Shown piece after piece: positions 267 to 59,695 of a stretch of DNA of 64,000 nucleotides (positions within the stretch are counted from its first letter, which is position 1; every line of letters starts with the position of its first letter). The stretch is from a virus, in IMG/VR virus record IMGVR_UViG_3300048029_000212, positions 1-64,000 of that record. One strand, given 5' to 3'. The notes under the pieces are model-generated. The model saw only the letters and a list, made by a program, of their open reading frames with translations, was not told where the DNA came from and ran no database searches. Made by a program: the position numbers and the translations under genes.

Positions 267-578
267 ATGAAAAATTTATTATTATCAATGTTACTAATCA
301 GTGCACCAGCATTTGCAGACGAAGATCGGTTTGAAGATGTTCGTGGCACATGGATGGTTTGTGCAGGTTGTCATGGAACAGAAGGTCAGGGCGTGGGTTC
401 GTTTCCCCCATTAGTAGGAAAGGACGCTGATTATATTATCGACGCTCTCTTATCATATAAGAATGGTGAGACACGTGGTCCATTATCTGGTCTTATGTGG
501 GGTCAAGCAAAAGGTTTGTCTGAAGGACAGATCGGTACGCTTGGTGTTTTCATTCAGGAAGGTCTACCATCAAAGTAG
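267..578 (+). CDS. Secreted c-type cytochrome (single heme)
   Basis: A 103-residue protein with an N-terminal signal peptide (hydrophobic stretch ending APAFA, cleavage near residue 17) and one heme-attachment motif CAGCH at residues 32-36. Met77, in a GLMWG context, is a good candidate for the distal axial ligand. Size and layout fit a small class I cytochrome c (c4/c553-like) that carries single electrons in the periplasm. Heme would have to be attached by the host maturation system. AAAAAGGAATAG upstream is a usable ribosome site. It is followed at once by a two-helix membrane protein. A cytochrome is unusual phage cargo; the di-heme peroxidase at 8086 is a possible partner. Confidence 0.85.
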   Translation: MKNLLLSMLLISAPAFADEDRFEDVRGTWMVCAGCHGTEGQGVGSFPPLVGKDADYIIDALLSYKNGETRGPLSGLMWGQAKGLSEGQIGTLGVFIQEGLPSK

Positions 579-1438: not shown

Positions 1439-1590
1439 GTATAGGGATGTTGGGTCTTCTCGCAGTCTTTATGTGTCCTATGGTATTTGGCGGTATTACG
1501 ATGTACTACTCCCATAAAACCATACATAAAGAGACACTACATAGATGGAGAAAGAGTAAAGGTTTAACTTTGTCAGAGATGGAGGATTAA
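1435..1590 (+). CDS. 51-residue single-pass membrane protein
   Basis: The ATG overlaps the previous stop (ATGA) and the TAA overlaps the next ATG by one base. The product begins with a hydrophobic helix (about residues 3-24) followed by a basic tail. The tight coupling on both sides is the main support. Function unknown. Confidence 0.55.
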   Translation: MSIGMLGLLAVFMCPMVFGGITMYYSHKTIHKETLHRWRKSKGLTLSEMED

Positions 1591-2183
1591 TGACAGATAA
1601 TGATGTACGGTGGAATAAAATCACCGGAATGAAAGTAGGCGATACTTTGCCTGAAGCAACGTTTCAGACACGAGTACGTGATGATGAGATAGATGGTCCT
1701 AACCCATATCGTTGGGAAGAGACTACGATGGCTGACTACACAGAAGGTCGTCGTGTTGTAATCTTCTCATTGCCTGGCGCATTTACGCCAACATGTTCCA
1801 CTATGCAGTTACCGACATTCGAAGAGAAGTTTGATCAGTTTGTTGATCTTGGTATTGACGACATCTACTGTATGTCCGTGAACGACTCTTTCGTGATGAA
1901 CGCATGGTCACGTCAACAAGAACTCAAGCGAGTCAAAGTGATTCCAGATGGATCTGGTCACTTCACACGTGAGATGGGGATGCTTGTTGACAAAGACAAC
2001 CTAGGATTCGGATACCGTTCTTGGCGATACGCAATGGTCGTCACCGATGGTGTGATCGAGGCATTGTTCCGTGAAGCAAGTATCCGTGACAATGCGGATG
2101 ATGATCCGTATGAGATGACCACCCCTGAAAATCTACTTGGGTATTTGCGCAACGCGATACCACAAGAAGAAGAGGTGGCCTAA
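1590..2183 (+). CDS. Peroxiredoxin (Prx5-like)
   Basis: A 197-residue thioredoxin-fold peroxidase. The catalytic signature PGAFTPTCS lies at residues 62-70, giving Cys69 as the peroxidatic cysteine. Cys94 is the only obvious second cysteine nearby. Length and motif order match the Prx5/AhpE-like group, which reduces hydrogen peroxide or organic peroxides with thiol donors in the cytoplasm. There is no signal peptide. It is coupled by a one-base overlap to the gene before it, in the same run as the cytochrome. The glutaredoxin domain of the NrdA at 23513 could in principle share the same thiol pool. Confidence 0.88.
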   Translation: MTDNDVRWNKITGMKVGDTLPEATFQTRVRDDEIDGPNPYRWEETTMADYTEGRRVVIFSLPGAFTPTCSTMQLPTFEEKFDQFVDLGIDDIYCMSVNDSFVMNAWSRQQELKRVKVIPDGSGHFTREMGMLVDKDNLGFGYRSWRYAMVVTDGVIEALFREASIRDNADDDPYEMTTPENLLGYLRNAIPQEEEVA

Positions 2184-2812: not shown

Positions 2813-2844
2813 GGTTACATAAATTGATGAGAGAGATTGTGAAT

Positions 2845-3270
2845 ATGTCTTCTGCTGCTATGAAAGAGAAGTTCTACAATGAGGAAAGAACCTTGCCTCT
2901 TTGCGTTAATGATGGTTGTGATAGAAATGTCGCAGTTCGTGAATGGAAGAACTGGTCGTTTAAGTCAGAGTGTAGTTCTTGCAGTAGTCGAAGAATCAAG
3001 ACAGGGGTGATGCGTGAAGGTGTGACTCAGCACAAGAAGACTTACTGTGAAAACGCAGATAGCCAACTTGGTTTTCCTTGTCCGGTACCGAAAGACGGTT
3101 GGGGGGGATTTTCCAACTCACTTGACTTAGATCATATAGATGGAGATCACTACAACAACGTGCCCGAAAATGTAAAAACTTTCTGTAAACTGTGTCACGG
3201 CCGGAAGTCTGTAGAAAATGGAGACTGCAACTCTCACAAATCTTCGGCGAGACGTATAGAGTCGTTATGA
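2845..3270 (+). CDS. HNH endonuclease-like protein paired with a methyltransferase
   Basis: A 141-residue protein with cysteine pairs at 43-46 and 114-117 and an HNH core around Asp96-His97 and the paired Asn104-Asn105, closing with a CKLCHG motif. I chose the ATG at 2845 because the GATGAGAGAGA before it is the same ribosome site used in the other early cassettes; the ATG at 2827 lies inside that site. The stop overlaps the methyltransferase start as ATGA. HNH proteins nick or cut DNA. Placed directly before a DNA methyltransferase it could be a restriction partner, a homing nuclease or a host-DNA nickase; the sequence cannot decide. Confidence 0.75.
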   Translation: MSSAAMKEKFYNEERTLPLCVNDGCDRNVAVREWKNWSFKSECSSCSSRRIKTGVMREGVTQHKKTYCENADSQLGFPCPVPKDGWGGFSNSLDLDHIDGDHYNNVPENVKTFCKLCHGRKSVENGDCNSHKSSARRIESL

Positions 3271-4391: not shown

Positions 4392-4735
4392 TGAAAAACG
4401 TAAAAGATCTGAGAGCCGAAGGTTATGTTACTGAGGAAGAAATTCCTAAGTTCACACTAGACCTTCCGCCCAACTACAAGTTCAACGAAGATAAGTTGAT
4501 CGCAGAATTTGCGAGATACATTGACTCTACATATAATCAACACTACGCCAAAGAGAAGTTTCAGGCGACCGAATTTATTATTGATGGGGGGCACGGTACA
4601 GGATTCTGTATCGGTAATGTTTTAAAATACGCACAACGTTATGGGAAAAAGGGGACTCGTGACGATGCGCGAAAGGACTTACTAAAGGTACTTCATTATG
4701 CGCTTATTCAATTACACGTTCACGATAGCGATTAG
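4391..4735 (+). CDS. DUF3310-like protein
   Basis: 114 residues. The C-terminal half has the spaced pattern FCIGNVLKYAQRYGKKG then DARKDLLKVLHYA, which matches the DUF3310 family found in many phages, a small helical fold of unproven function. Start chosen at the TAATG overlap with the upstream gene. Confidence 0.7.
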   Translation: MKNVKDLRAEGYVTEEEIPKFTLDLPPNYKFNEDKLIAEFARYIDSTYNQHYAKEKFQATEFIIDGGHGTGFCIGNVLKYAQRYGKKGTRDDARKDLLKVLHYALIQLHVHDSD

Positions 4736-5078
4736 TTTACTCTTAACCGGATGTGCGACATCTGGTGTCACTAATGCGTACCGCTACGGTACGGATGATT
4801 ATAAGTTCCTAGAAAAGGAATATGAGAACTTGCATCCACAAGTTCACTTTGTTTTACTCAAAAACGAAGCCGAGTATAATTCAGCCAGACGACAGAATCT
4901 AGGCGTACAATGGGACACAGTGAGTGCATTCACTCTCTGGATTCCGGAAACCGGCGAGTGCACCGTGTACATAAAGGACCCACAGTGGCAGTGGGAACCT
5001 GAGTTGATTGGACACGAAGTGGCACACTGTATATGGGGGAGATACCATAGAGGCAAAGAAGGCCTCAGACCATATTAG
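4698..5078 (+). CDS. Lipoprotein with HExxH zinc-peptidase motif (paralogue 1)
   Basis: A 126-residue protein with a lipoprotein signal (LLTGC, lipidated Cys at about residue 19) and a C-terminal HEVAHCIWGRYHR. HExxH with a downstream Gly and His suggests a zinc metallopeptidase anchored in the outer or inner membrane facing the periplasm. The protein at 45727 has the same plan and the same C-terminal motif. The gene overlaps the one upstream by 38 bases, and its TAG stop shares one base with tRNA-Asp. A role in lysis or cell-wall remodelling is possible but not shown. Confidence 0.75.
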   Translation: MRLFNYTFTIAISLLLTGCATSGVTNAYRYGTDDYKFLEKEYENLHPQVHFVLLKNEAEYNSARRQNLGVQWDTVSAFTLWIPETGECTVYIKDPQWQWEPELIGHEVAHCIWGRYHRGKEGLRPY

Positions 5079-5170: not shown

Positions 5171-5413
5171 ATGAGGTTTTTATTAGTTGCACTGTTGACA
5201 ACAGTGACCAGTTGTAGTACAATGAGTGAACAAATTGATAAAGGACTTTGTCTCAAGTGGGCAACCTTTATTCAAGAGGAACAAGAATGTGTTGGTGGTC
5301 GCGGTGTTGCGCAACAAATTTGCGTCGTGCGATATGTACCAAAAGCAAAGTGTTTAGTCTGGGAATGGCCAGAAGGAAGACCCGAAAATGGATCCGATAC
5401 AAGTTTGGAATGA
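5171..5413 (+). CDS. Small exported protein, probable lipoprotein
   Basis: Eighty residues. The N-terminus is a hydrophobic leader ending VTSC, an acceptable lipobox, so the mature protein may start at Cys15. Three or four further cysteines lie in the mature part. AGGAAAAC precedes the ATG. Function unknown. Confidence 0.6.
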   Translation: MRFLLVALLTTVTSCSTMSEQIDKGLCLKWATFIQEEQECVGGRGVAQQICVVRYVPKAKCLVWEWPEGRPENGSDTSLE

Positions 5414-6801: not shown

Positions 6802-6889
6802 GGTGGGCTGGCTGAGTGGTCGAAAGCGATGGTCTTGAAAACCATTGAACCGAGAGGTTCCGTAGGTTCGAATCCTACGCCCACCGCCA
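6802..6889 (+). tRNA. tRNA-Ser (TGA)
   Basis: Class II tRNA. Acceptor GGTGGGC/GCCCACC, anticodon stem ATGGT/ACCAT with loop CTTGAAA (TGA), long variable arm, T-loop TTCGAAT, CCA encoded. Confidence 0.95.
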
Positions 6890-6952: not shown

Positions 6953-7261
6953 ATGGCAGCAGCTAAAAACCCAAGAAACCAACACGGACCTAGAAGATTA
7001 GATGAAGATGTGTTTGTAGAGAATTCTACATACGCTAGACACAGACTGAAAGCAAGAATCATCAAACAAGAAATGATCTCGTATTCTTGTGATTGTTGTG
7101 GGATAGGACCAGAGTGGATGGGAAAACCAATGACTCTAGTCTTAGATCACATCAATGGGGTGAACAACGACAACAGACTAGAAAATCTAAGATTCGTTTG
7201 TAGTAATTGTGATTCTCAATTGCCTACATACAAATCTAGGAATAAGGCAAGCAATAACTGA
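6953..7261 (+). CDS. HNH endonuclease
   Basis: A 102-residue protein with a CDCCG knuckle at 46-50, an HNH core LDHINGVNNDNRLENLRF (His66, Asn72-74, Asn79) and a second CxxC at 83-86. This is the classic zinc-bracketed HNH fold of free-standing phage endonucleases. No DNA-binding AP2 domain is visible. It stands alone under a late promoter, which suggests either a homing gene or a nuclease acting on replicated DNA. It is not closely similar to the HNH protein at 2845. Confidence 0.85.
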   Translation: MAAAKNPRNQHGPRRLDEDVFVENSTYARHRLKARIIKQEMISYSCDCCGIGPEWMGKPMTLVLDHINGVNNDNRLENLRFVCSNCDSQLPTYKSRNKASNN

Positions 7262-7315: not shown

Positions 7316-8002
7316 ATGAAATCTTTTAAAACATTCCTAGACGAAGGTGTCAACGATCCAGCAATCTTCAAGGCGATCTTCCTTGCGGGTGGGCCAGGCT
7401 CTGGTAAGTCATTCATCGTCGGCAAAACTGGTTTGACCTCTATGGGTTACAAAGTTGTCAACTCCGATGACGCGTTTGAAGCTGCCATGAAGAAGGTTGA
7501 TATGGAGATGACTCCAGACAACATCTTCTCTCCGAAGGGTCAAGAACTTCGTGGTAAGGCAAAGAAGATTACTGGCAAAAAAGAGGAACGTTATCTGAAG
7601 GGACGCCTTGGTCTTGTCGTAGACGGTACTGGTAAAGATCCAGACAAGATTGCCGCGCAAGCAAAGAAGGTTAAAGAATTAGGTTACGATGTTGCGATGA
7701 TTTTCGTAAACACAGACCTTGATACTGCTATCAACCGTGATGCAAAACGTGCGCGTACTCTAGGCGCGAAAGGTGTTACTGAGTATTGGAAAGCAGTTCA
7801 GCGCAACGTCGGCAAGTTCCAACGCATGTTTGGTAAAGAGAACTTCTTGGTAGTTGATAACTCTGAAGGTAAGAACTACGAGAAAGAAACGTTAACTGCA
7901 TATCGTGATGCGAAGAAGTTTACGGACAAACCACACGGCGCGAAGGCCAAGCGTTGGATTGAAGTAGAGAAGCAAGCGATCAAACGCGTCAAAAATAGTT
8001 AA
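7316..8002 (+). CDS. P-loop kinase with capsid-targeting-like N-terminus
   Basis: A 228-residue protein. Residues 1-11 (MKSFKTFLDEG) resemble the capsid-targeting tag of T4 internal head proteins. The Walker A motif GGPGSGKS is at 25-32, followed by a conserved VNSDDAF and VVDGTGKD, the layout of zeta-toxin or polynucleotide-kinase type P-loop kinases. It probably phosphorylates a nucleic acid end or a small substrate with ATP. FLDE before Gly11 also fits the L-x-E cleavage rule of the T4 prohead protease. It has its own late promoter. Alternatives are a UDP-sugar kinase of the zeta-toxin type or a plain nucleotide kinase. Confidence 0.8.
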   Translation: MKSFKTFLDEGVNDPAIFKAIFLAGGPGSGKSFIVGKTGLTSMGYKVVNSDDAFEAAMKKVDMEMTPDNIFSPKGQELRGKAKKITGKKEERYLKGRLGLVVDGTGKDPDKIAAQAKKVKELGYDVAMIFVNTDLDTAINRDAKRARTLGAKGVTEYWKAVQRNVGKFQRMFGKENFLVVDNSEGKNYEKETLTAYRDAKKFTDKPHGAKAKRWIEVEKQAIKRVKNS

Positions 8003-8012
8003 TTATTCACAC

Positions 8013-8042
8013 TTGACAACCCCTAGCATAATGTAGTATACT
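8013..8042 (+). promoter_or_regulatory. Sigma70-type promoter of the peroxidase gene
   Basis: TTGACA at 8013-8018, 18-base spacer, TATACT at 8037-8042. It reads into the di-heme peroxidase from an intergenic gap, so that gene has its own host-type promoter. Confidence 0.75.
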
Positions 8043-8085: not shown

Positions 8086-9498
8086 ATGAAGAAACTACTA
8101 ACTGTAGCTGTGTCTACGGCACTCCTGAGTGCATGTTCTGGCGGAGCAGATAACGCATCCGCCCCCGACCCTGTGGTCGTGACTCCCCCAACTGTAACAC
8201 CTGTTGATCCAGCAGTCGAGGCACGTGACAATCTACTCACGTTACTTGACTCCACATCAACGACAGGTTCATACGAAGAATACATCCTTCCCGACAGTGA
8301 TGACTTCGATAACATTCCGCAAGACCCAAGTAATCCTATTACTGCAGAGAAAGTTGCACTAGGTAAGTTAATCTATCATGAGACTGGTATCACTGAAGGC
8401 GACATTGCGTCCAGTGAAGGTACATTCTCGTGCGCGTCATGTCACAATGCCCAAAACGGATTCAAGTCTGGTATTCGTCAGGGTATAGGTGAAGGTGGTG
8501 TCGGTTTTGATCATCGCATGATCGCTGAGGGTGTCAATCCCGAAGACATCGATGTGCAACCTGTTGCAACACCCACTGTACTCAACACGGCATTCCAAGA
8601 AGTGATGTTGTGGAATGGTCAGTTAGGTAATGTGATTGCGGGTAATGTCAATGTTGGTATTGATCCCGATCGTCACTTCACAGAAGGTACTCCGAAAGAA
8701 GCAAACCTACGCAACTTTGCTGGTCTAGAGACACAAGCAGTTGCGGGTCTAGGTGTGCATCGTCAGGGTGACACAGATGATTCTATCCTGCGCACTAACG
8801 AAACTTATCGTGAGATGTTTGAAGCTGCCTACGGTGTTGCAGAACCCGACGATATGTTAGAGGCAACTGCACTAGCGATCGCCGCATACGAACGGACTAT
8901 TCTTGCGAATCAAGCACCCTTCCAAGCATACTTGAAAGGTGACGAAACTGCGATGACTGAATCTGAAGTCGCTGGTGCGGAAGTGTTCTTCGGTAAGGGT
9001 AACTGTTATGCGTGTCATAACGGACCTGCGTTGTCATCTCCCGTTGGTGCGATGGCAGACGAAGTGTTTATGACTGTCGGTTTCCACGATTTAGATATCT
9101 GGGAAGACACGGTCGGTGAAGTCAACGATGCGACTAGAGAGGGTCGTGGTGGATTCACTGGTGATGAGATGGAGAAGTTTGCGTTCAAAGTTCCGCCTCT
9201 TTACAACCTTATAGATACTACTGTATTCGGTCACGGTGCGTCGTTCTCTAGTGTAGAGGATGTCGTGCGATATAAAGTTGATGCGGTTCCCCAACACCCA
9301 CAAGTGGAGACGTATGACCTTGACTATCGGTTCACGCCGTTAGACTTGACCGAAGATGAGATTGCAAACCTTGTTGCGTTCCTTGAGAACGGTTTGCATG
9401 ATCCAGAGTTGATGCGATATGTGCCAGAGTCGTTACCAAGTGGCAACTGTCCTATCAACAACGATGAAGTGTCGCGTCAAGAACTTGGGTGCGACTAA
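8086..9498 (+). CDS. Di-heme cytochrome c peroxidase (CcpA/MauG family) lipoprotein
   Basis: A 470-residue protein. Lipobox LLSAC puts the lipidated cysteine at residue 17, followed by a Pro/Val-rich linker. Two heme motifs, CASCH at 116-120 and CYACH at 307-311, are spaced as in bacterial cytochrome c peroxidases, with the family words LGKLIYHE and TPTVLNTAF before and after the first heme. These enzymes reduce hydrogen peroxide to water with electrons from a small periplasmic cytochrome c. MauG enzymes share the fold and oxidise protein side chains, so the substrate is not proven. I start at 8086 (MKKLL), where the signal peptide begins. The gene is intact, stands alone between a sigma70 promoter and a tRNA region, and is very unexpected in a phage. 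Confidence 0.93.
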   Translation: MKKLLTVAVSTALLSACSGGADNASAPDPVVVTPPTVTPVDPAVEARDNLLTLLDSTSTTGSYEEYILPDSDDFDNIPQDPSNPITAEKVALGKLIYHETGITEGDIASSEGTFSCASCHNAQNGFKSGIRQGIGEGGVGFDHRMIAEGVNPEDIDVQPVATPTVLNTAFQEVMLWNGQLGNVIAGNVNVGIDPDRHFTEGTPKEANLRNFAGLETQAVAGLGVHRQGDTDDSILRTNETYREMFEAAYGVAEPDDMLEATALAIAAYERTILANQAPFQAYLKGDETAMTESEVAGAEVFFGKGNCYACHNGPALSSPVGAMADEVFMTVGFHDLDIWEDTVGEVNDATREGRGGFTGDEMEKFAFKVPPLYNLIDTTVFGHGASFSSVEDVVRYKVDAVPQHPQVETYDLDYRFTPLDLTEDEIANLVAFLENGLHDPELMRYVPESLPSGNCPINNDEVSRQELGCD

Positions 9499-9602: not shown

Positions 9603-9678
9603 GGGGCTATAGCTCAGTTGGGAGAGCGCTTGATTTGCATTCAAGAGGTCGTGGGTTCGACTCCCTCTAGCTCCACCA
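9603..9678 (+). tRNA. tRNA-Ala (TGC)
   Basis: Acceptor GGGGCTA/TAGCTCC, anticodon stem CTTGA/TCAAG with loop TTTGCAT (TGC), T-loop TTCGACT, CCA encoded. The following 190 bases hold no convincing gene, only a 14-base palindrome at 9741-9754. Confidence 0.95.
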
Positions 9679-9868: not shown

Positions 9869-10000
9869 ATGTTAGAATTCTTATTATATTTCTTTGCTAC
9901 CATTGGAGTTATATTAGTCTCCAGTGTAATCTTTTTATCATACCTCGTGAGAAGAGAGCGAAGATCCATAGATGAAAATGACTTGGATAATTATAGATAA
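9869..10000 (+). CDS. 43-residue membrane microprotein
   Basis: One hydrophobic helix (about residues 3-27) and an Arg-rich, acidic tail. A GTGAGAG ribosome site precedes the ATG and the TAA overlaps the next ATG by one base. I prefer it to a longer overlapping frame starting at 9763, which has no ribosome site. Confidence 0.55.
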   Translation: MLEFLLYFFATIGVILVSSVIFLSYLVRRERRSIDENDLDNYR

Positions 10001-10677
10001 TGTTTGAACATGTACCTATTGAATTGACTGAAATGAAAACGGAGAACCGCAATGGTCGCCGTGAGTATAAAACGCCCGAAGGTATCAACCTTCCCTCTAT
10101 AACCACCGTACTCTCTATACTTTCACGCGAGTCTATCGCAAAGTGGCGTAAAAAAGTCGGTAACGAAGAAGCAAACCGCATTTCTCATCGCGCATCTACA
10201 CGCGGTACTGCAGTCCATGAAGTGGTTGAGAAATACATCAACAATGAAGAGAGTTTCAAAAATGGATATACTCCAGATATTATTAGTAGTTTCCTTGATC
10301 TTCAGCCCATTCTCGATAGCCGCATTGGCAGAGTATTTGCACAGGAAGCACCTCTCTACTCCAATCATCTGGGTGTGGCTGGTCGTGTGGACTGTGTTGC
10401 TGAGTTTGATGGTAAGTTGTCTATCATCGACTTTAAAACCTCACTTAAACCAAAACGACTTGAATGGGTCAAAAACTATTTCATGCAAGAGTCCGCCTAC
10501 GCTATTATGTGGGAAGAACGGACGGGAAGGCCCATCACCCAACTAGTCACCATCATTTCTGTAGACAACCACGAACCACAAGTCTTTATTGAACATAGAG
10601 ACAATTGGGTTCGTCCTCTCCGCGACACAATTGCGCAATATAATGCAGAAAATTCTGGAAATGCCCTTGACATATAA
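10000..10677 (+). CDS. PD-(D/E)XK exonuclease (RecB/Cas4-like)
   Basis: A 225-residue protein. The nuclease core is GRVDCVAEFDGKLSIIDFKTS at about residues 128-149: Asp of the first acidic motif, then DFKT, the (D/E)xK motif. RGTAVHE near residue 69 is the usual N-terminal histidine motif of this family. It probably degrades or processes DNA ends during phage recombination or host DNA breakdown. Coupled by a one-base overlap to the microprotein upstream. Confidence 0.82.
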   Translation: MFEHVPIELTEMKTENRNGRREYKTPEGINLPSITTVLSILSRESIAKWRKKVGNEEANRISHRASTRGTAVHEVVEKYINNEESFKNGYTPDIISSFLDLQPILDSRIGRVFAQEAPLYSNHLGVAGRVDCVAEFDGKLSIIDFKTSLKPKRLEWVKNYFMQESAYAIMWEERTGRPITQLVTIISVDNHEPQVFIEHRDNWVRPLRDTIAQYNAENSGNALDI

Positions 10678-45399: not shown

Positions 45400-45737
45400 T
45401 GTACGAGTATGAAGCGACAGTTCGTAGATGGGTTGATGGCGATACCGTCGACGTTGATATTGATCTTGGTTTTGGCCTCATTTATGCTAATCAGCGCCTT
45501 CGTCTTTACGGTATTGATGCTCCTGAGCAGCGTACACGAGACCTTGACGAAAAGGAAAAAGGCCTTGCTGCAACCGCGTACGTAAACGAAGTTGCTCCTG
45601 TGGGATCAAAGGTAACTATTGTCACATACAAAGAAGGTAAGTATGGTCGTATACTTGCCGAGGTTTTTTTGGAAGACCGAACAAACCTAAATAGTTTACT
45701 CACAGAAGTAGGCCATGCTGAAAGATATGAAATCTAA
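45399..45737 (+). CDS. Thermonuclease (staphylococcal nuclease fold)
   Basis: A 112-residue single OB-fold domain. Active-site landmarks are WVDGDTVDVDID (Asp), LRLYGIDAPEQ (Arg and Asp) and GRILAEVF (Arg). No signal peptide, so it would act in the cytoplasm or after lysis. It could help break down nucleic acid at the end of infection. Confidence 0.85.
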   Translation: MYEYEATVRRWVDGDTVDVDIDLGFGLIYANQRLRLYGIDAPEQRTRDLDEKEKGLAATAYVNEVAPVGSKVTIVTYKEGKYGRILAEVFLEDRTNLNSLLTEVGHAERYEI

Positions 45738-46086
45738 AATAACAGTATTAATCGCTTTATTCACATTCCTGTTAGTTTCTTGCGAACCATCTAAGGACAG
45801 AGAAAAGATTTCTGGTACACAGGACTACAGTGGAATTCAATTTCCTATTACGGTCTATACGTTTCAGAATCAAAGAGAGTTTGATAAAGCAATGAAAGAC
45901 ATCAAGACCCACGACGAATCCGCAATCGGATACTCGCGTTGGTTTCTTTCTAAAACAACTGGAGAGATGTCTCGTTGTGAGATCTATGTCATTGTACCTG
46001 AAGGCGTAGCCGACAATCACATGACCACTTGGGGTCACGAACTTGCACACTGTGTGTATGGAACTTATCACAGAGAACCAAAATGA
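45727..46086 (+). CDS. Lipoprotein with HExxH zinc-peptidase motif (paralogue 2)
   Basis: A 119-residue protein. Lipobox LLVSC, lipidated Cys at about residue 19. The C-terminus is HELAHCVYGTYHR, the same pattern as HEVAHCIWGRYHR in the protein at 4698. Lies in a lysis-like context (holin, nuclease). ATGA overlap with the next gene. Alternative ATG at 45715 would add four residues before the signal peptide. Confidence 0.75.
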   Translation: MKSKITVLIALFTFLLVSCEPSKDREKISGTQDYSGIQFPITVYTFQNQREFDKAMKDIKTHDESAIGYSRWFLSKTTGEMSRCEIYVIVPEGVADNHMTTWGHELAHCVYGTYHREPK

Positions 46087-56486: not shown

Positions 56487-58160
56487 TTATTTGCGTGTTC
56501 CTACGTATGGATCTTGAGGATCTGTCGTAGATATGTTTCCGGTCACGATGGATGCCCCGCCACCACCGCCGTTAGAAACATTGTTTAATGTGCTGTTGTC
56601 GATAGCTACAACAGGAGGCGTATTTTTCATCTCGTTACTTTCTTTTACTAAAGAAGACACGTTACTAGAAGATGTCGGTGTAGACTGTCGTGATGATTCA
56701 CTTACCGATAAGACAGAATCTATTTTACTGAACGTATCATTAGGTATGTTTTTTAAGCCCGGTTTAAATGTTAATTCTTTCCCCTTTGGAGTATTCGCCT
56801 TTCCACCTTCATACATTGCATCGAACATCGGAAGTGTTAACGCCATCAATTCTCCAAGTTCACTTAATTCTTTTTTAGACCGACTGAAGTTAAGGCTTGT
56901 GTCCGAAAGATTTGATAAAGCCATCGTCATTTTTGCAACTGCATTTGCGGCTGGGTCAAACTTTTCTAGTTTAGAAAGGTCAACTTGTTCAAGTTGCTTA
57001 AGACCTTCGCTAACTCTTTCATAAACGGTTGAAGTGTCTCCGGTCAAAAAACTTGCAAAACCATCAATTAAATTACCAACCCCATCAATTGCTTTTGCTC
57101 CTGTTAACATAGCAATGCCGGTTGCAACTATAGCAGCCACCGGAGCAAACCCAAGAAGTTTTGTATAGTCTGGTTTTGTCAGTCCCGTTAAACCCTCGCC
57201 CAAGTTAATCATCATATTTCGTATGTTGGAACCGTCAACGTTCATCCAGTCCATTGCTTTGTCGCCAACAGCAAGACCACCGAAGAATCCACCAATACCC
57301 AGTCCAATTGCAGTCATGCCGACTGCAGCATATCCTAACCCCTTTATTCCACCTTTAAATTGTGCAAATATACCAGCTCCGGTTAAAAGCGCAGCCAGAC
57401 CTACTAGTTGACCACCACTGAATGCACTCAAACCCTCGGAGAGGTTGATCATCATTGATTTGAGTTTAGAACCATCAACATTCATCCAAGACATTGCTTT
57501 GTCGCCAACAGCGAGAGCTCCGAAAAATCCGGCTAGTCCAAGACCAAGCGCGGCCATACCGCCGCCTGCTCTAAAGGATGACCCTGCACCGAACAGAGCT
57601 CCTAATGCACCAGAACCTGCAATAAGACCCCCAAGTATAAGTAACCCGTCCTTTGGCGCCTCTGAGAATGCTTCACTCAAAGTGATTATTTGTTTTTTAA
57701 GAGATTGTCCATCTATTTTTAAGTAATTTCCTGCAGCATCTGCCAAAGCAATCCCTGAAAAGAATGCACCCAGTCCAATACCTAGTCCCGCAAGAGCGGC
57801 ACCAGCGCCTAGGCCTTTAGCCATAAAACCCAGACCGCCCGCTAATGCATTTGAGAACACGCCTTGTTTTTTTCCGGATCCTTTTGTATCTTTATCTTTG
57901 GTGTTGGCCGAAATTTCCATTAGAGTGTCCAGCATTTTTTTATCAAATGCTTTCTTTTCACTCTTTTCTTCGGACAAATCTCCGGGCTCGGGCGTGATGT
58001 TCCTTATTTTTTCAGCAGTGTCCATCAACTCCAGTCTGTATTGTTTCAGACTAGGTGTTTCGTGAACTACCGCCCTGATGTAGTCATATACATCATTGTG
58101 AGAATCCCTTTGATCTTTATTTAATTCTTTTAATTGTTCTGATAGATCAGCTAAAGACAT
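56487..58160 (-). CDS. Tail tape measure protein
   Basis: A 557-residue protein with a charged N-terminal region, then a long Gly/Ala-rich hydrophobic middle built from three imperfect repeats of about 72 residues, each containing a GDKAMxWMNVDGSxL signature, then a polar C-terminus. Long size, hydrophobic repeats and position after the gp26-type gene fit the tail length-determining protein (T4 gp29 role). The ATG directly follows the stop of the frameshift extension of gp26. Confidence 0.7.
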   Translation of the reverse strand: MSLADLSEQLKELNKDQRDSHNDVYDYIRAVVHETPSLKQYRLELMDTAEKIRNITPEPGDLSEEKSEKKAFDKKMLDTLMEISANTKDKDTKGSGKKQGVFSNALAGGLGFMAKGLGAGAALAGLGIGLGAFFSGIALADAAGNYLKIDGQSLKKQIITLSEAFSEAPKDGLLILGGLIAGSGALGALFGAGSSFRAGGGMAALGLGLAGFFGALAVGDKAMSWMNVDGSKLKSMMINLSEGLSAFSGGQLVGLAALLTGAGIFAQFKGGIKGLGYAAVGMTAIGLGIGGFFGGLAVGDKAMDWMNVDGSNIRNMMINLGEGLTGLTKPDYTKLLGFAPVAAIVATGIAMLTGAKAIDGVGNLIDGFASFLTGDTSTVYERVSEGLKQLEQVDLSKLEKFDPAANAVAKMTMALSNLSDTSLNFSRSKKELSELGELMALTLPMFDAMYEGGKANTPKGKELTFKPGLKNIPNDTFSKIDSVLSVSESSRQSTPTSSSNVSSLVKESNEMKNTPPVVAIDNSTLNNVSNGGGGGASIVTGNISTTDPQDPYVGTRK

Positions 58161-58346
58161 TTATAAACCTTTCCGTTTTGCCCTCTCATTTTTTTCTTTT
58201 ACATCATCCACTAACAGTGTTAAGTAGATTTCTCTCTCCCAAGGAATCATATGTTCAACGTCGTCCAATGAGTAATTGAAATTGTTCATTAGTTGGAAGT
58301 TGACTTGATAATAGTTTGTCAACGTTTCATGGGAGAGGTTTACTAA
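58161..58346 (-). CDS. Second reading frame reached by -1 frameshift from gp26
   Basis: A 61-codon open frame (from TTA at 58346 to TAA at 58161) that continues in frame -1 exactly from the slippery TTTTTTT just before the gp26 stop. It has LTNYYQVNFQLMNNF and DVEHMIPWEREIYLTLL. It has one internal ATG but no ribosome site before it. Best read as the C-terminal part of a fused gp26 product of about 298 residues. Confidence 0.6.
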   Translation of the reverse strand, partial: LVNLSHETLTNYYQVNFQLMNNFNYSLDDVEHMIPWEREIYLTLLVDDVKEKNERAKRKGL

Positions 58347-59056
58347 AAAAAATCGTCGAGTCCTCTTAATATGTGATCGTTTTCAGTTCCACATGAGTGA
58401 CACTTAAACTCTATGTTTTTTGTGAGACTGGGTATGTTGTTGGCGAAGTCAGAAATCTTTTCAAATTGACTTGATGTCATAGACTCTAAAAAAGACATTA
58501 TATCTTCATTTGTTTCGTCTTTAACAGAAATATTTTCTTCTTCGGTCATAATGGAGTCCATACAAGTAATGATTAGTTGCATGAGAGCTTCGGTTACCGT
58601 AGAACTTTCAGATAAGTTTTCATTTAAGAGAAACTCATCATACGTTGGATATTTCATTTTGACAGACACATCATCGGTAATAGGTATGATAGTGCCGGAC
58701 TTTTCACTTCCGGTTGTGACTTCTATATCGTCTAATGATATAGAAATCTCATTTTCTTCGTTACACTCGCTACAAGAAACGTTTATTTTAGATGTTTCTC
58801 CCACCGACTTAGAACGAATTTTTGTGAACATATAGTCAACATCAAATGTTGTTAGTCCATGATCTAATTTTTCTTCAACACAAGACTCAATAGTGCGAAT
58901 TATCGATCTAACGATGTCTCTGCGGTTTTGAGATTCAAGTGCAATCAATAAAGATTTTTGCTCTTTAACTAGAAATGGTCTGTATGTGACACTTTGTTTG
59001 CTAGATGGAACTGTCATCCCATACGACGGCGACGAGTTAAGTTTTGGTAATGCCAT
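58343..59056 (-). CDS. 26: Baseplate hub/tail assembly protein gp26-like
   Basis: A 237-residue protein in the T4 gp26 family: KQSVTYRPFLVKEQKSLL near the start, paired cysteines in VSCSECNEE and FKCHSCGTE that could form a zinc site, and a ESMTSSQFEKISDF segment. It lies between a tail-tube protein and the tape measure, the position of tail assembly chaperones in other tailed phages. The last codons GAT TTT TTT TAG hold a slippery heptamer. Confidence 0.82.
   Translation of the reverse strand: MALPKLNSSPSYGMTVPSSKQSVTYRPFLVKEQKSLLIALESQNRRDIVRSIIRTIESCVEEKLDHGLTTFDVDYMFTKIRSKSVGETSKINVSCSECNEENEISISLDDIEVTTGSEKSGTIIPITDDVSVKMKYPTYDEFLLNENLSESSTVTEALMQLIITCMDSIMTEEENISVKDETNEDIMSFLESMTSSQFEKISDFANNIPSLTKNIEFKCHSCGTENDHILRGLDDFF
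58346..58352 (-). promoter_or_regulatory. Probable -1 ribosomal frameshift site
   Basis: T TTT TTT in the gp26 frame, directly before TAG. A -1 slip reads TTA and opens 61 further codons. Confidence 0.6.
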
Positions 59057-59071
59057 GATATATCCTATAAT

Positions 59072-59695
59072 TTAAATTAAACCACCAAGATTGAGCCCTA
59101 TGCTTGGACTCAACCCATCCTTTTCGTTCTTTATAACTTCCCAATCAGTGTAGGAAAACTGTACAGAAAATTCAACAATTTGATCCTGATCACTATTCAA
59201 CTGAATAGAACTCATTGACGTTGGAAATGCGTTTATCAGTTTTACACTGTATATAGATTTTCCCAAAACATCTAGATTAAAATCTAATGGTCCTAAATCA
59301 AAACCAAATCTGGCGATAGGTTTTTTTAGTTGACGTATAAAAATATCTCTTGAATAATTGTCTCTGTATCCAACATGTAAATGGTCGTCTTTTTTTACGA
59401 TTATTTCAGACTTCCATTTATCAAAATACTTCTTGGGAGCATAGTCATTCGTAACATAAAATGTCATAGACACATCCTCTGTTGAGAATCCATTAGCAAC
59501 TTTTTCTTGGACCATTGCGATGGGTCTGTCAAGAGTAAGTATCTGTCTTCCCGGCAAAGACACTTCTTTACAGAGAACATTCATTGTACGACTATCTACT
59601 CCGCCCATTGATGGAAGATTAACCAGAAACTGGTTGTTCATAGCCAGACCACCTTTGGAGATCAGTTTACTTTTTAATTCTTCTATGCCTGCCAT
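59072..59695 (-). CDS. Tail-tube-fold protein (gp54/gp19 type)
   Basis: A 207-residue protein. MNNQFLVNLPSMGG, CKEVSLPGRQILTLDRPI and VSMTFYVTNDYAPKKYFDKW are landmarks of the T4 tail tube fold. With gp48 close by, this is probably the tube initiator gp54, though gp19 has the same fold and a separate gp19 is outside the window. Confidence 0.78.
   Translation of the reverse strand: MAGIEELKSKLISKGGLAMNNQFLVNLPSMGGVDSRTMNVLCKEVSLPGRQILTLDRPIAMVQEKVANGFSTEDVSMTFYVTNDYAPKKYFDKWKSEIIVKKDDHLHVGYRDNYSRDIFIRQLKKPIARFGFDLGPLDFNLDVLGKSIYSVKLINAFPTSMSSIQLNSDQDQIVEFSVQFSYTDWEVIKNEKDGLSPSIGLNLGGLI

Follow-up and report, generated by a model that had tools for sequence, protein, structure and literature searches.

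A di-heme peroxidase-family lipoprotein encoded by T4-like phages, with relatives in marine bacteria

Classical bacterial cytochrome c peroxidases (CcpA, BCCP) are reported to take electrons from small mono-heme c-type cytochromes (PMC10301912). In NgBCCP, the residues with roles equivalent to those considered here are Trp98, Gln108, Glu118 and Met280; variants of the Glu and the Gln are described as inactive, and eukaryotic peroxidases as having a His in place of Glu118 (PMC10094543). Heme ligation is reported to be Met-His in bCCPs and Tyr-His in MauG, and BthA to turn over H2O2 (PMC6405878). Full-text searches, judged by titles and abstract openings and with most subscription journals outside their coverage, returned no report of a cytochrome c peroxidase, or of any c-type cytochrome, carried by a phage or other virus; the AMG paper PMC9448743 names cytochrome c peroxidase in a legend on bacterial genes. 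An earlier note on the DNA studied here had described such a peroxidase, as a di-heme lipoprotein, in a phage genome.

This DNA, hereafter the window, consists of positions 1-64,000 of IMG/VR record IMGVR_UViG_3300048029_000212, and the whole virus record has 160,050 bases. T4-like genes occur in the window, including those for a T4-type terminase, a gp32-like SSB and the baseplate, and by gene content the record is that of a T4-like myovirus on the Kyanoviridae side. The terminase shares 94.8% identity with its counterpart in the circular phage C48C1, and its next relatives are cyanophages at about 48%. Because psbA (PF00124) was not found in the 160-kb record, nothing marks the phage as a cyanophage, though the next-closest terminases belong to cyanophages. 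The features of the locus are listed in Table 1.

Table 1. Coordinates in the window of the peroxidase gene, its signature residues and the neighbouring features.
Feature	Position	Strand	Basis
Small cytochrome c (103 aa, one heme, signal peptide); putative electron donor	267..578	+	
Peroxiredoxin, no signal peptide seen	1590..2183	+	profile matches
tRNA-Ser(TGA), upstream locus border in relatives	6802..6889	+	tRNA search
AAA/kinase-like phage protein directly upstream of the peroxidase	7316..8002	+	profile matches
Sigma70-type promoter, TTGACA-N18-TATACT	8013..8042	+	kept in 28/38 phage copies
Di-heme peroxidase-family lipoprotein, 470 aa	8086..9498	+	sequence, Pfam, fold model, homologs
Lipobox LSAC (LLSAC17), predicted lipidated Cys17, Ser at +2	8125..8136	+	sequence
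Heme motif 1, CASCH (peroxidatic heme), residues 116-120	8431..8445	+	sequence, alignment
Glu136, at the place of the classical CcpA distal P-heme loop His	8491..8493	+	alignment
Trp176, bridging Trp between the hemes, invariant	8611..8613	+	alignment
His225-Arg226, at the place of the CcpA catalytic Glu-Met	8758..8763	+	alignment
Heme motif 2, CYACH (electron-transfer heme), residues 307-311	9004..9018	+	sequence, alignment
Tyr396-Lys397; Lys397 at the axial Met (CcpA) / Tyr (MauG, MbnH) position	9271..9276	+	alignment
tRNA-Ala(TGC), downstream locus border	9603..9678	+	tRNA search
Phage exonuclease (phrog_298), downstream of the peroxidase	10000..10677	+	PHROGs match

The gene is full-length, as previously described, running without interruption over 470 residues from the ATG at 8086 to a stop codon ending at 9498. 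Its product starts with a good lipobox, L-S-A-C17 with Ser at +2, which Pfam LPAM_1 matches with an E-value of 0.005, just under its cut-off. Both CXXCH motifs are present, but not at the family spacing that the earlier note had assumed: they lie 191 residues apart compared to 143-161 in reference CcpA/MbnH proteins. The difference is due to extra residues inserted between Trp176 and Gln217, which the bacterial members of the subfamily defined below have as well. Membership in the CCP_MauG superfamily is indicated by the match to PF03150 (E 6.5e-24, 85.7 bits versus a gathering cut-off of 25.6) together with the two CXXCH motifs and the predicted fold. An AlphaFold2 model built from 51 relatives (pLDDT 80.8, pTM 0.83) aligned to CcP structures with Z up to 28.9, to MbnH with 28.3, to MauG with about 25 and to BthA with 21.3; the ten best structural matches (Z 28.9 to 27.6) were to MbnH and to structures of CcPs. 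The best NCBIfam models all stayed below their cut-offs: TIGR03981 (HxS MauG-like) gave 112.6 bits (cut-off 340), the MbnH model TIGR04039 106.8 bits (362.85) and the MauG model TIGR03791 98.3 bits (443.85). No PHROGs family matched the protein, and a viral fold library searched with the model yielded one match at E <= 10 and none at E <= 0.001.

Signature residues were compared in three sets. The reference alignment held 15 of 17 proteins, of which 6 came via the MbnH model, 8 via the CCP_MauG model and one was YhjA-type, while L200 and L202 had no two-heme ORF and were dropped. From the 64 phage copies described below, 43 were kept after removal of 18 identical and 3 partial ones (L033, L257, L259). 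The bacterial set comprised 49 of 53 loci, with L084 and L086 (partial), L088 (a 24% fragment) and L056 (whose frame, as extended, ran into stops) left out. The heme Cys and His residues are invariant in the phage (43/43) and bacterial (49/49) copies, as are Trp176 and Gln217 (each 92/92), and the lipobox Cys is kept in all but one copy of either set (42/43 and 48/49). Position 397 is a Met in 8 of the 9 CCP/YhjA-type references and a Tyr in the 6 MbnH-type references and in L205, but a Lys in all 43 phage copies and in 47 of the 49 bacterial ones (Leu and Tyr in the other two). The preceding Tyr396 is equally common (43/43 and 47/49, with Phe in the other two), and the single bacterial Tyr397 and the two Phe396 favour 397 over 396 as the putative ligand position. 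Lysine ligation exists in c-type cytochromes such as TsdA. His225 is aligned with the Glu of the VEM/VEL/LEL motif in 15/15 references and is found in 92/92 copies; Arg226 is found in 43/43 phage and 48/49 bacterial copies. At position 136, where 6 of the 9 CCP/YhjA-type references have a His, the subfamily has Glu or Asp. His143, present in 34/43 phage copies and, among the bacterial rows listed, in Haliea only, occupies another site than the loop His.

Judged by these residues, the phage protein is neither a canonical CcpA nor a MauG, and the phage copies and their bacterial relatives form a subfamily with a Lys397, His225-Arg226, Glu136 signature. With classical CcpA/BCCP it has in common the fold, two c hemes, the bridging Trp and the Gln of the P-heme pocket; it differs in having Lys397 for the axial Met, His225 for the catalytic Glu and Glu136 for the loop His, and in the Trp-Gln insertion, its lipoprotein nature and, in most copies, a C-terminal Cys pair. 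The name cytochrome c peroxidase is thus only partly earned: a peroxidase-family di-heme lipoprotein it is, but with the Met ligand and the catalytic Glu replaced. The Trp, which had been suggested as a means to separate CcpA from MauG, does not do so as both types have it; the axial position does separate them, and here it is neither Met nor Tyr. MauG, MbnH and BthA have the fold and the missing loop His in common with the phage protein, which differs in having Lys for the axial Tyr and His for Glu, and in lacking both a conserved partner gene and a mau setting. BthA is reported to have conserved C-terminal cysteines too, but a Ser in place of the bridging Trp that the phage protein keeps; the superfamily network in the same paper may contain the subfamily in an unnamed cluster (PMC6405878). 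YhjA-type triheme quinol peroxidases have a third heme domain and an N-terminal transmembrane helix, whereas the phage protein has two CXXCH motifs and starts with a lipobox. Its direct relatives are uncharacterised CCP_MauG lipoproteins of Alteromonas, Glaciecola and marine Bacteroidota (about 42-56% identity), with the same His/Lys/Glu signature and LPSGNC-type tail. Compared to these, most phage copies and the Haliea copy have a loop that is 4 residues shorter, F-D-H-R. In some phage copies the tail, or just its second Cys, is gone.

An ortholog of the gene, full-length and with 80% identity, is found at the same locus in the complete phage C48C1 (OQ984149.1, Kyanoviridae; CDS0082, record positions 57990-59411), where it is annotated as hypothetical only. 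The C48C1 record gives no isolate host, and a literature search found no paper naming this phage. Peroxidase loci in IMG/VR numbered 33 with a single-protein query and 62 with a family-alignment query; the latter, together with the window and C48C1, amount to 64 copies with 46 distinct sequences and stop codons in none. Estimates of dN/dS (NG86) for 15 phage copies and the Haliea copy, each against the window, were in the range of 0.07-0.13 for 15 of the 16 comparisons, the remaining pair being saturated in dS, and on this measure the gene is shown to be under purifying selection. The earlier argument that it is too intact for a decaying host fragment thereby gains in weight, with no stops in 64 copies, dN/dS of about 0.1 and the same place in C48C1.

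Relatives with and without the gene were collected using the exonuclease phrog_298 as query. The position relative to the tRNAs, exonuclease and kinase is common to relatives, the peroxidase starting 1.6-3.0 kb upstream of the exonuclease in the loci read by this query (in L035 and L099 only the peroxidase end was read), while more distant phage relatives are without the gene. ARAGORN placed a tRNA-Ser(TGA) before and a tRNA-Ala(TGC) after the peroxidase in 7/7 phage loci; no tRNA was seen beside it in the divergent phage loci L254 and L256. These sequence comparisons confirm that the gene is real and viral. As reported earlier, no transposase was seen nearby, but two HNH-like ORFs read from the sequence (6953-7261 and 2824-3270) lie inside the tRNA/peroxidase region and are possible mobile elements. 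An annotated HNH endonuclease is also located close to the peroxidase locus of C48C1.

The sigma70 promoter proposed at 8013 is not beyond chance as a single match (5 promoter-like matches in the region versus 4.1 expected from shuffles), yet it holds up in comparison: of the 38 phage copies compared (the window and 37 loci), 28 have a TTGACA-N17/18-TATA(A/C)T pair equally far from the start codon, with varying spacer sequences. Kinship among the copies accounts for some of this conservation. In the remaining 10 copies the peroxidase is located directly behind a tRNA. Host RNA polymerase would transcribe the gene, probably early in infection.

Two other genes in the window bear on a possible peroxide pathway. 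The small cytochrome c (PF00034, E 3.8e-5, above cut-off), for which the nearest solved chains are cytochromes c, c554, c-552 and c4, was present in 3 of the 10 peroxidase-bearing records where the position was readable, namely the window and two IMG/VR contigs, and C48C1 gave no match to it. A cytochrome-peroxidase pair is thus possible in the phage of the window, but not general. The close IMG/VR contigs with the small cytochrome c are L174-L176, and distant versions with an N-terminal extension occur on other viral contigs, L177-L190; L174, a further viral contig, has the cytochrome at 96% identity and no peroxidase in the stretch read. Many loci with the peroxidase lack the peroxiredoxin. 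Conversely, 12 peroxidase-less relatives have a peroxiredoxin (48-62% identity, one 29%) at 1.7-3.5 kb upstream of the exonuclease, which gives this site the look of a slot for genes of peroxide defence.

The reading that we lean towards, and hold to be reasonably probable, is that of a periplasmic H2O2 reductase in the infected cell, for whose expression and maturation the host supplies RNA polymerase and Ccm. On this view the di-heme peroxidase lipoprotein is an auxiliary gene of a virulent, marine, T4-like phage, transcribed from its sigma70-type promoter, probably early. Sec would export the protein and the lipobox cysteine would be acylated; lipoproteins with Ser at +2 are sorted to the outer membrane, the predicted destination. 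Host Ccm would attach both hemes. The N-terminal P heme would bind H2O2, with His225 rather than a Glu as the acid-base catalyst, and receive electrons from the second heme by way of Trp176. Lys397 is the probable sixth ligand of that second heme, to which a small periplasmic cytochrome c may pass electrons; this could be a host protein or, in the phage of the window and two relatives, one that the phage itself encodes. Periplasmic H2O2 would be turned to water, complementing the phage peroxiredoxin inside the cell. Such a scheme suggests that the virus detoxifies or uses H2O2 in the periplasm of the infected cell. Against it speaks that the catalytic Glu needed by CcPs is absent, with the substitution by His225 presumed from an alignment, that the phage cytochrome is found in only 3 of the 10 readable records, and that many loci lack the peroxiredoxin. 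If Lys-ligated, the second heme would probably also have a potential below that of a Met-ligated heme, and might then be unable to take electrons from a cytochrome c of high potential.

The MauG-like alternative raised in the earlier note, here taken as a MauG/MbnH-like maturase that uses H2O2 to oxidise aromatic residues on a periplasmic protein of the host or the phage, would agree with the protein not being a Met-ligated CcpA and with the best NCBIfam scores coming from MauG-like models, but all these scores are far below cut-off and the axial Tyr is missing, with Lys instead. MauG and MbnH have partner genes. None of the families among 330 flanking ORFs at 50 bacterial loci (L056 included) spans more than 5 loci, and a MauG-type role is disfavoured because no partner gene is conserved beside the bacterial copies. 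A radical SAM/SPASM protein (PF04055, PF13186) encoded by the same phage at 41387-42373 was considered as a partner and rejected: no NCBIfam model, HxS and quinone maturases included, comes near its cut-off, and the gene lies near those for a Nol-like carbamoyltransferase and a glycosyltransferase. We regard a maturase as unlikely. No better placed is the notion of H2O2 as an electron acceptor, whereby the enzyme drains the host periplasmic chain and lets respiration and proton motive force continue during infection. E. coli YhjA is reported to permit H2O2 respiration (PMC10301912; PMC6405878) and the window encodes a cytochrome c, but the phage protein has a lipobox in place of the transmembrane helix and lacks the third heme of YhjA; the chemistry is the same as in detoxification and sequence cannot separate the two, and we give this version a similarly low chance.

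A non-catalytic surface lipoprotein, acting for example in superinfection exclusion, would suit the probably early expression and the other small lipoprotein-like ORFs in the window (4698-5078, 5171-5413), but heme ligands and pocket residues that are invariant in 43/43 phage copies are unexpected for a plug and make this very improbable. Chimeric or contaminating bacterial DNA, the least credible reading of all, is refuted: although the family is mainly bacterial (53 loci), the synteny is the same in the complete phage C48C1 and in many independent contigs, and the main phage copies fall with one Haliea copy in a 100/100 clade, so that the original view of a phage-borne gene stands. With a further ORF at 45715-46086, three small lipoprotein-like ORFs were observed, none with a Pfam match above cut-off.

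Bacterial relatives of the gene were found in marine Gammaproteobacteria such as Alteromonas, Glaciecola and Sessilibacter (47-56% identity) and in Bacteroidota and their relatives (44-52%). Trees were inferred from subsets of 81, 51, 46 and 44 rows, the last three being the careful trees. The phage copies are placed next to Glaciecola rows with supports of 98/96 (51 rows), 96/95 (46 rows) and 94/94 (44 rows), and the donor lineage looks gammaproteobacterial, on the Glaciecola/Alteromonas side. The phylogeny proposed earlier thus points to a donor, but it does not identify the host. The clade of the main phage copies and one Haliea copy has 100/100 support in all three careful trees, with the Haliea copy inside the phage clade at 98/95, 99/96 and 98/91 (51, 46 and 44 rows). 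With the main clade constrained to phage copies alone, AU tests yielded p values of 0.232, 0.039 and 0.435 for these datasets, while all phage rows of the 46-row tree as one clade gave 7e-85. Phage lineages of the L138/L247/L251 type, the L254/L256 type and the L253 branch are located outside the main clade in the 46- and 44-row trees, so that more than one acquisition is possible.

The Haliea copy (L036, 4839-6338; 69% identity) comes from an uncultured MAG and is located on a bacterial contig near a tRNA-Ser, between genes that we read as lysC and metF. It has an EGMEE loop in common with phage copies L118, L241, L244 and L258, and among the 40 DNA matches listed between its contig and the phage loci there is only the gene itself, plus one 48-base match at the tRNA. 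Transfer from phage to bacterium is likely for this copy, though not proven. Among 140 Haliea-family genomes, 1 has the subfamily peroxidase (E <= 1e-40) and 120 have some CCP_MauG protein (E <= 1e-30). Halieaceae were considered as a possible host because of the 69% copy; only one family genome carries the gene. An (NSG)n-like repeat follows the signal region of the Haliea copy.

Tentatively, and with more doubt than for the reductase itself, the subfamily could be a third bCCP/MauG class, with a eukaryotic-peroxidase-like distal His next to an Arg at the P heme and a His/Lys-ligated second heme, that several marine T4-like phage lineages adopted as an infection gene, that forms with the phage cytochrome c the first virus-encoded periplasmic electron-transfer chain to H2O2, and of which one copy went back to a Haliea-type bacterium. 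The data indicate a phage lineage that devotes coding capacity to c-type heme chemistry on the periplasmic side of its host, which links virus production with the host's Ccm system and with the peroxide stress of seawater. In Alteromonas, Glaciecola, marine Bacteroidota and phages alike, the subfamily has kept the CcP fold with the catalytic acid and the axial ligand swapped, and in this it is a natural experiment on the residues that direct such an enzyme to peroxide turnover or to chemistry of the MauG type. As a minor observation elsewhere in the window, a tRNA-Leu stretch (2679-2750) matches two Pseudomonas phages, D3 and PMG1, in their attP/integrase region (about 90% over 56-72 bases), which probably reflects no more than a common tRNA.
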